A stretch of 64,000 bases of DNA from the NCBI GenBank assembly GCA_902512305.1, contig CABXIU010000004.1:1-64000 (forward strand). The letters are read 5' to 3'. This DNA comes from an uncultured Gammaproteobacteria bacterium. Lineage in GTDB: Bacteria; Pseudomonadota; Gammaproteobacteria; PS1; Pseudothioglobaceae. A program made the position numbers and the translations under genes. The notes under the pieces were generated by a model. It was not told the DNA's origin and searched no databases. It was given only the letters and a program-made list of their open reading frames with translations. Shown in pieces: positions 43,715-46,258 of this stretch (the stretch's first letter is position 1; every line of letters begins with the position of its first letter).

Positions 43715-44553
43715 ATGCATATATTCGATTAATGAGGTTAGATAAACCAATTGGATCTTTGTTACTATTATGGCCAACCTATTGGGCACTTTTCTTAAGT
43801 GCAGATGGATGGCCAGATTTGGATTTATTAATCATCTTTACTTTAGGCGTTATTATTATGAGAAGTGCCGGATGTGTTATTAATGATTTTGCAGATCGAA
43901 ATATCGATAAACATATTAAAAGAACAGAAACTAGACCTCTTACATCAGGTGAAATTTCACCAAAGTCAGCACTAATATTATTTGTAATATTATTACTTTT
44001 TGCGCTAATTTTAGTTCTACAAACAAACTTATTGACAATCCAGCTTTCATTCATAGCTCTAGTATTAGCAGCCTTATATCCCTTTACAAAGAGATGGACT
44101 AATTTACCACAGTTGGTTTTGGGCGCAGCATTTGGTATGAGTGTGCCTATGGCATTTAGTGCTCAAACTGGTTCTATTCCTTTATCTGCAGTCTGGGTTT
44201 TTATTGCAACAATAGTTTGGACTTTGATTTATGACACGTTTTATGCGATGGCAGATCGTGATGAAGATATAAAAATTGGTGTTAAGTCGAGCGCAATTCT
44301 CTTTAAAAAGCACGATCAAGTTGTCATTTCCTTACTGCAATTTTTACTCATTTTAATTTTTATAATAATTGGAAATATGTTTAATTTAGGACTAATTTAC
44401 TATTTTTCATTAATTATTATTAGTCTTTTTATGGTTTACCATCAGTTTTTGATGAAAAAACGCCAAAATAAAGATTATTTCAAGGCTTTTATCAACAACA
44501 ATTATGTTGGTATGACAGCATTTGCTGGTATTTTTCTGTCTGTAGCATTGTAA
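43711..44553 (+). CDS. ubiA: 4-hydroxybenzoate polyprenyltransferase
   Basis: LMRLDKPIGSLLLLWPTYWALFL, GCVINDFADRNID, YDTFYAMADRDEDIKIGVKSSA. Confidence 0.95.
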   Translation: MNAYIRLMRLDKPIGSLLLLWPTYWALFLSADGWPDLDLLIIFTLGVIIMRSAGCVINDFADRNIDKHIKRTETRPLTSGEISPKSALILFVILLLFALILVLQTNLLTIQLSFIALVLAALYPFTKRWTNLPQLVLGAAFGMSVPMAFSAQTGSIPLSAVWVFIATIVWTLIYDTFYAMADRDEDIKIGVKSSAILFKKHDQVVISLLQFLLILIFIIIGNMFNLGLIYYFSLIIISLFMVYHQFLMKKRQNKDYFKAFINNNYVGMTAFAGIFLSVAL

Positions 44554-44638: not shown

Positions 44639-44665
44639 TTGACACTCAGTTTTCGTTACTATAAA
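44639..44665 (+). promoter_or_regulatory. promoter of small membrane protein gene, copy 1
   Basis: TTGACA-N15-TATAAA, conserved in position and sequence with copy 2. Confidence 0.6.
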
Positions 44666-44720
44666 AAGTGCACCAATCGGCAAAGATGCTGGTTATCTTT
44701 ATAACTAATGGAGAGAAAAT

Positions 44721-44936
44721 ATGTTAAGTAATGTAACTGGTTGGATAAAAAAATTAACAGAAGCAGGTGTAGGTCTTGTAGGACTTGCAATTGTTGCACA
44801 AGTAATCTTTGGTTCTAGTGTAGCATTCCTTCCTGGTGATGTTGTTTCTACTCTTATGGGTTTAATTGGCTCACTTGGTGGTGCTGGCTTAGTTGGCTTA
44901 ATCACTGCAGGATTGTTGTACCAAATTCTGAAGTAA
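44721..44936 (+). CDS. 71-aa hydrophobic small protein, tandem paralogue 1
   Basis: ATG with GGAGAG SD; MLSNVTGWIKKLTEAGVGLVGLAIVAQVIFG..., paralogous to 45156-45374; own promoter and terminator. Confidence 0.85.
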   Translation: MLSNVTGWIKKLTEAGVGLVGLAIVAQVIFGSSVAFLPGDVVSTLMGLIGSLGGAGLVGLITAGLLYQILK

Positions 44937-44960
44937 GCAATTCCATATTAACTCAATAAA

Positions 44961-44985
44961 AAACCCGCTAATTAGCGGGTTTTTT
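44961..44985 (+). terminator. Rho-independent terminator of small protein copy 1
   Basis: AAACCCGCTAATTAGCGGGTTTTTT. Confidence 0.85.
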
Positions 44986-45073
44986 ATCGACTTAAGAAAT
45001 ATTTATGTTTTCTGTTAAGTCTTATTAATGCAACATATTGAGGTTTTTTTACAAAAATGCAGCCTAGAAAAAC

Positions 45074-45100
45074 TTGACATAATGATATTGATACTATAAA
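45074..45100 (+). promoter_or_regulatory. promoter of small membrane protein gene, copy 2
   Basis: TTGACA-N15-TATAAA, same spacing as copy 1. Confidence 0.6.
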
Positions 45101-45155
45101 AAGTGCATCAATCGGTATTGATGCTGGTTATCTTTTTAACAAATGGAGAGAAGAT

Positions 45156-45374
45156 ATGTTAGACAACGTAATTGGTTGGGCAAAAAAATTAACTGAAGCA
45201 GGTGTTGCAGTAATTGCACTTGCCGTAGTTGTTCAAATAATCTTTGGCGCTGACGCTGCATTCCTTCCTGGCGATGTAACTGGCAGCTTACTTAATATTA
45301 TTAATGCGATGGGCTCTGCTAACCTAGTAGGACTGATTGCTGCGGGGTTAATATACAAAATCTATACCAGATAA
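45156..45374 (+). CDS. 72-aa hydrophobic small protein, tandem paralogue 2
   Basis: MLDNVIGWAKKLTEAGVAVIALAVVVQIIFGADAAFLPGDV...; GGAGAG SD; paralogue of 44721-44936. Confidence 0.85.
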   Translation: MLDNVIGWAKKLTEAGVAVIALAVVVQIIFGADAAFLPGDVTGSLLNIINAMGSANLVGLIAAGLIYKIYTR

Positions 45375-45394
45375 CAATAGCATATTAACTCAAT

Positions 45395-45423
45395 AAAAAA
45401 ACCCGCCTTTACGCGGGTTTTTT
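45395..45423 (+). terminator. Rho-independent terminator of small protein copy 2
   Basis: AAAAAACCCGC-CTTTAC-GCGGGTTTTTT. Confidence 0.85.
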
Positions 45424-45442: not shown

Positions 45443-46258
45443 TTAAATTCCTCGAAGTAGCTCGTTAATTCCAACTTTGGATCTTGTTTTGGCATCAACC
45501 TGCTTAACGATAACTGCACAATAAAGAGAGTAGCTTCCATCTGTAGAAGGGAGATTTCCTGAAACAACAACTGATCCAGCCGGTATTCGACCATAACTTA
45601 CCTCGCCAGTCATTCTGTTAAAAATTTTTGTAGATTGACCAATATAAACTCCCATTGATATAACAGCTCCTTCTTCAACAATAACACCTTCAACTACTTC
45701 TGATCTTGCGCCAATAAAACAATCATCTTCAATAATCGTTGGGCTGGCCTGTAATGGTTCTAGAACGCCTCCAATACCAACACCGCCAGAGAGGTGCACA
45801 TTTTTCCCAATTTGTGCACAAGAGCCTACTGTTGCCCATGTATCAACCATTGTTCCTGAGTCTACGTATGCACCTATATTGACATAAGAGGGCATTAAAA
45901 CAGTGTTAGGGGCAATATATGACCCTTTTCTCGCAGTTGCAGGGGGAACCACCCTAACACTGGAGGCTTGAAACTCCTTTTCAGTTGTCTCTGCATATTT
46001 AGATGGCACTTTGTCAAAGTATTGAGTGAACCCAGCTTGCATAGGGATATTATCTGCAAGTCTAAATGAGAGAAGAACCGCCTTTTTGAGCCATTCATTA
46101 ACTTGCCAATCGCCGACAGCTTTTTGTTCAGCAACTCTGGCTTTTCCAGAGTCGAGTAGATGTATTGCTTCATTAACAGCCTCTTTGATTTCAGGGCTAG
46201 CGGTATCAGGAGTTAAATGGCTTCTGTCCTCAAAGGCTGCTTCAATTATATCTTTCAT
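45443..46258 (-). CDS. dapD: 2,3,4,5-tetrahydropyridine-2,6-dicarboxylate N-succinyltransferase
   Basis: hexapeptide repeats; [60 protein letters not shown]. Confidence 0.96.

Follow-up and report, generated by a model that had tools for sequence, protein, structure and literature searches.

Phage auxiliary genes, or morons, are bacterial genes that recur in unrelated phages, at many insertion sites, each with its own promoter and terminator. Among small membrane proteins, three described groups come close to the proteins examined here. Class II holins (and pinholins) are of about the same length and have two helices with both termini inside the cell; the T4 exclusion protein Imm is a small two-helix membrane protein; and the type IV secretion pilins (PF18895) are about 70 amino acids long, again with two hydrophobic helices.

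In the current study, we describe a family of proteins of about 72 amino acids, predicted to be inner-membrane hairpins, which occurs as a tandem pair (p1 and p2) in an uncultured member of the Pseudothioglobaceae and, in other bacteria and in marine phages, as single or paired genes. The family behaves like a moron in the features listed above, but has no known metabolic role, and its copies in T4-like phages have a conserved RNA leader of their own. With class II holins it shares length, two hydrophobic helices, ends predicted to lie inside, phage carriage and, in many phages, a late promoter; it differs in that the bacterial gene occupies a fixed site under purifying selection, the viral gene lies mostly away from lysis genes, and no PHROGs or Pfam holin match rises above noise. 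The likeness to Imm-type proteins would lie in the small membrane protein and the stand-alone phage gene; the differences are the late promoters and the housekeeping site, always the same, of the bacterial orthologues, and no sequence link was found. An earlier note, made from the letters alone, had described the tandem pair; what goes beyond it are the phage copies, the covarying leaders, the recurrence of tandem pairs outside this group and the finding that entire genera of the family lack the gene.

Two monocistronic units between ubiA and dapD

The locus (positions 44639-45423 of the window, by which we mean the whole 64,000-nucleotide stretch analyzed) consists of two complete monocistronic units lying between ubiA, which ends at 44553, and dapD (45443-46258, minus strand) (Table 1). 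The two paralogous open reading frames are where the earlier note had placed them, and each has its own promoter, leader, GGAGAG and terminator, in agreement with its view of the units as independent. The claim of paralogy also held, although the estimate that roughly half of the residues are identical was too low; the two proteins share 61% identity over 69 amino acids (E=7e-25). The leaders, measured from TATAAA to ATG (61 nt), proved near-identical as claimed. Both terminators are present as well, but the string preceding them, taken to be the same, is only near-identical (six versus seven A ahead of CCCGC).

The TTGACA-N15-TATAAA promoter is likewise found ahead of each gene. Its spacer is 15 nt in both units (at the usual 17, the -10 element would read TAAAAA), and a promoter scan restricted to spacers of 16-18 nt flagged neither promoter. 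In SUP05 relatives, the promoter reads TTGACA-N17-TAAATT. The units were also said to be built for high expression. Promoter, leader and terminator fit this description; codon bias does not settle it (0.70 for p1 and 0.57 for p2, against a window median of 0.64 and 0.64-0.73 for ribosomal proteins), and codon adaptation, which does not single out p2, was discarded as an uninformative sign here. Each unit would appear strong, combining its own promoter, a 5′ hairpin that probably stabilizes the mRNA, a good ribosome site and a terminator.

Table 1. Features of the two units, in window coordinates
Feature	Coordinates	Strand	Evidence
Promoter 1, TTGACA-N15-TATAAA	44639-44665	+	Sequence; TTGAC in 56/56 related host leaders
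5′ leader 1; hairpin 44675-44694; GGAGAG Shine-Dalgarno 44710-44715	44660-44720	+	Hairpin covaries family-wide
p1, two-helix membrane protein, 71 aa	44721-44936	+	ORF, paralogue match, conservation, selection
Intrinsic terminator 1, CCCGCTAATTAGCGGG then T6	44964-44985	+	Sequence
Promoter 2, TTGACA-N15-TATAAA	45074-45100	+	Sequence
5′ leader 2; hairpin 45105-45124; GGAGAG 45145-45150	45095-45155	+	54/61 positions identical to leader 1
p2, two-helix membrane protein, 72 aa	45156-45374	+	ORF, paralogue match, AlphaFold2 model, selection
Intrinsic terminator 2, AAAAAACCCGCCTTTACGCGGGTTTTTT	45396-45423	+	Sequence scan

A predicted hairpin outside the described families

AlphaFold2 modeled a hairpin with helices at 2-30, 41-54 and 57-71 (mean pLDDT of 88), in keeping with the layout proposed earlier of a short N-terminal segment and two hydrophobic helices joined by a PGD turn. 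K10 and K11 on one side, and K68 and R72 on the other, flank a loop that carries D33 and D40; under the positive-inside rule, this charge pattern suggests that both termini face the cytoplasm. Of the helices, 41-54 is amphipathic (p=0.003), and in 2-30 conservation extends around every face (p of about 0.8 for one-sidedness), as would be expected if it were packed on all sides in an assembly. Among 104 nonredundant members, V25, G53, L57, V58, G59 and L60 are essentially invariant.

Searches of Pfam, NCBIfam, PHROGs, PADLOC and the PDB, by sequence or by fold, gave no match to the p1/p2 family, which bears out the impression that no characterized family is involved. The best phmmer hit in the PDB was to DegQ (E=0.94), and Foldseek found nothing matching there at E values up to 10. 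Four family members searched against PADLOC gave nothing at E values up to 1, hence no match to a known defense family. The best PHROGs holin for p2 reached only E=0.32, no Pfam holin matched p1, p2 or the viral copies, and the literature searched yielded no mention of the protein.

A pilin-like oligomer had been one suggestion, and we considered an exported membrane subunit of the pilin or filament type. A hairpin of about 70 residues conserved on all faces is compatible with this, and the T4SS pilin profile PF18895 did produce an alignment, but at 7.7 bits against a cutoff of 26.6 (E=5.1), which is chance level. Moreover, neither a conserved signal peptide nor a cleavage site was seen, the loci that we read have no secretion genes nearby, and phage carriage would go unexplained. 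We regard such a subunit as very improbable.

Distribution and selection in bacteria

Within the family Pseudothioglobaceae, the gene is present in 49 of 83 genomes, and its occurrence differs sharply by genus: 25/29 in the window's genus and 10/12, 8/9 and 2/2 in three others, against 0/12 in genus g2 and 1/12 in genus g4. Two genomes (G029 and G034) have the syntenic site without the gene. The closest loci in named genomes belong to Thioglobus, Pseudothioglobus, PS1-clade and SUP05 records. Most genomes of the window's genus have the tandem pair, with single copies in a few others and three copies in the complete genome G028; outside the genus, there is one copy, at the same ubiA-dapD site in several genera. 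Pairwise dN/dS values are low for both p1 (0.04 to 0.30) and p2 (0.06 to 0.22). Two copies (G815:C98:8040-8237 and G819:C208:6764-6949) contain an internal stop codon and may be decaying genes or sequencing errors.

The genera without the gene appear to include animal symbionts. Of the 12 genomes in g2, 11 consist of one complete chromosome of 1.0 to 1.5 Mb, and in five of these it measures 1.0 Mb, as in clam symbionts. We infer that g2 and g4 include animal symbionts and that the gene was lost in them; at least one symbiont, that of Bathymodiolus heckerae (L056), retains it. We also considered FtsZ loss as a symbiont marker and found it useless: FtsZ (PF12327 and PF00091) is absent from genome G000 and from the 22 other family genomes tested, including complete ones of the window's genus, and this holds alike for genera with and without the hairpin gene. 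FtsZ absence has been reported for free-living “Ca. Thioglobus autotrophicus” and is known for SUP05 (PMC6509183); it extends to the window's genus.

Beyond the family, 39 of the 386 Alphaproteobacteria sampled (about 10%, in 29 genera) carry a member, as do Oceanospirillaceae and some Verrucomicrobiota; members are rare in a general sample of Gammaproteobacteria and in a phylum sample. Adjacent pairs occur in three other gammaproteobacterial genera and in Alphaproteobacteria (L265, L268, L270, L284 and L288), where a further three loci (L282, L283 and L292) have weaker second members. The alphaproteobacterial neighbor genes are variable and show no functional link, and therefore imply no pathway. 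No plasmid matched, a moderate negative given that the BLAST low-complexity filter weakens the queries unevenly. Two other matches were discarded, one a lysine-rich protein (G262) and the other lying inside a 1071-amino-acid frame (G732). In two alphaproteobacterial loci (L089:5259-5489 and L289:1454-1699), the family member is directly followed by another small membrane protein, a divergent one that may be a distant paralogue.

Copies in marine phages

Two scans of IMG/VR recovered relatives in 201 and then 530 viral contigs, so that the total is at least 530. The carriers are marine T4-like and T5-like phages, with neighbors such as tail sheath, tail tube, TerL, portal, NrdA/B, gp32-type SSB, UvsX, ThyX and clamp loader. 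It forms a unit by itself, in most cases within a gap between genes, and a terminator-like hairpin often lies 3′ of it. Its position varies: between nrdA and nrdB, or near sheath and tube, the clamp loader, uvsX or gp32/thyX. In the T5-like phages, it adjoins a terminase about 50% identical to those of Vibrio and Erwinia phages of 112 to 121 kb. Of 30 distinct viral leaders, 9 have a late promoter of the TATAAATA type at most 160 nt upstream, where 1.1 would be expected (about eightfold enrichment), and others carry TTGACA-TATAAT of the sigma-70 type. By consensus pattern, then, the viral gene has a promoter and terminator of its own at variable positions, and it has a cellular homologue with a vertical history, the syntenic ubiA-dapD locus across genera.

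The closest viral copy is 56% identical to those in the window; no viral copy is close, and therefore there has been no recent uptake from the window's genus. In two trees (98 and 104 rows), both built on few columns and poorly resolved at many forks, viral copies fall in several clades among the cellular ones, with five label changes in one tree; the figure of one change from the other tree leaves ungrouped rows out of account and is no evidence of a single origin. Among the GenBank phages of INPHARED, neither tblastn with several queries nor a DNA search found a relative (short chance matches only), a negative that is only moderate because, in a local control, the BLAST low-complexity filter weakened one query badly (and another little).

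As one alternative, the phage hairpin might act as a class II holin or assist one, forming a holin- or pinholin-like pore, of which the bacterial copies would be tamed versions. Besides length and predicted topology, late promoters speak for it, as does some proximity to holin-like genes: in L104 the gene lies two genes behind a protein resembling the three-transmembrane (3-TM) holin of gene transfer agents (GTA) (E=0.00037, below our cutoff), and in three T5-like loci (L113, L118 and L126) its immediate 5′ neighbor encodes a membrane protein of 144 amino acids that looks similar by eye. Yet several phages have a separate holin-like gene, and many copies lie away from any recognized lysis gene, next to nrdA/nrdB, gp32, uvsX or sheath. 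The weak PHROGs score also counts against it. In bacteria, the holin-like role put forward earlier is a poor fit, since a lethal holin would hardly occupy a fixed syntenic site behind a constitutive-looking promoter, let alone in two or three copies. On balance, we find this alternative improbable.

A second alternative, which we consider unlikely though less so than a holin, is superinfection exclusion: located in the inner membrane, the hairpin would block the entry of DNA from further phages. Phages would carry it to keep competitors out, and planktonic bacteria would have domesticated it as a constitutive barrier, which symbionts, being shielded, lose. A stand-alone unit in unrelated phages at many sites is typical of morons, the small two-helix protein would resemble Imm, and the gene is missing from all or nearly all genomes of the two genera inferred to include animal symbionts. 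Against this, the host gene occupies a fixed syntenic site rather than a defense island and has no PADLOC match, the late promoters of many phages would act later than exclusion usually does, and arms-race genes are seldom so highly conserved in sequence. The fixed housekeeping locus, purifying selection and constitutive-looking promoter point away from a defense or toxin gene and toward a function in the cell, and because unrelated phages carry the gene as a portable cassette, infection would seem to need that function as well.

We therefore favor, ahead of both exclusion and holin-like action, an oligomeric hairpin that serves membrane maintenance and was taken up by phages as an auxiliary gene, a tentative choice that falls somewhat short of an even chance. 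Of the earlier suggestions, an abundant membrane structural peptide fits best. The proteins would most likely pack densely as homo- or hetero-oligomers in the inner membrane, in a maintenance role of value to aquatic bacteria with a free-living habit. Marine phages of the T4-like and T5-like kinds probably acquired such genes more than once and may express them from sigma-70-type or T4-late promoters, sustaining or replacing the function during host shutdown, as with other auxiliary genes of theirs. It counts against this explanation that codon usage does not single out p2, that no viral copy is close to those in the window, that the alphaproteobacterial neighbors vary, and that a T4-late promoter suits structural or lysis proteins at least equally well. 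With rather more doubt, the family could be a phage auxiliary gene of a new kind: an oligomeric hairpin of the inner membrane, small and abundant in planktonic Alpha- and Gammaproteobacteria, that unrelated marine T4-like and T5-like phages bring along, with a dedicated and hitherto undescribed RNA leader in the T4-like ones, to keep its function going to the end of infection. As it stands, a gene unnamed in the libraries searched is carried by uncultured phage contigs in the hundreds and by roughly one in ten of the sampled alphaproteobacterial species, and the conservation of a 72-residue protein across bacteria and phages suggests a single, specific task in the membrane that may be under pressure in plankton.

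RNA leaders of host and viral genes

Nearly all of the 56 related host leaders, every one of which retains TTGAC, have a hairpin upstream of the ribosome site, and six of its seven pairs show changes on both sides (compensatory). Its covariation score of 0.411 compares with 0.292 for shuffled alignments (0/500) and at most 0.184 for slid controls; we give the slid controls more weight, because related sequences easily exceed shuffles. Purifying selection on the gene and covariation in the leader demonstrate that each of them is functional, and, together with the conservation of the pair across the genus, they mean that the pattern is not due to chance.

The leader in T4-like phages has a hairpin of another kind, with an invariant AAACTA behind it; the covariation score of this hairpin is 0.632 against 0.237 for shuffled alignments (0/500) and at most 0.059 for slid controls. 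A search of Rfam gave no leader match. Across 52 loci, a covariance model of the T4-like leader gave 16 matches, with E values below 1e-4 only directly 5′ of the hairpin gene, and this leader offers a handle for finding further copies.

Five viral loci (L097, L098, L102, L156 and L171) share a conserved block, GGTCACCAA-AGGGATGGGATRC, about 40 to 90 nt upstream of the gene and 5′ of the leader hairpin, which is possibly a second RNA element. An apparent second leader with a truncated gene copy (L171:2632-3248) has N inside it and looks like a misassembly; we discarded it. Finally, three T4-like contigs encode a permuted two-piece tmRNA (L127:3276-3463, L152:5412-5590 and L165:5705-5922) about 500 nt or less downstream of the gene, a form of tmRNA that is typical of Alphaproteobacteria.
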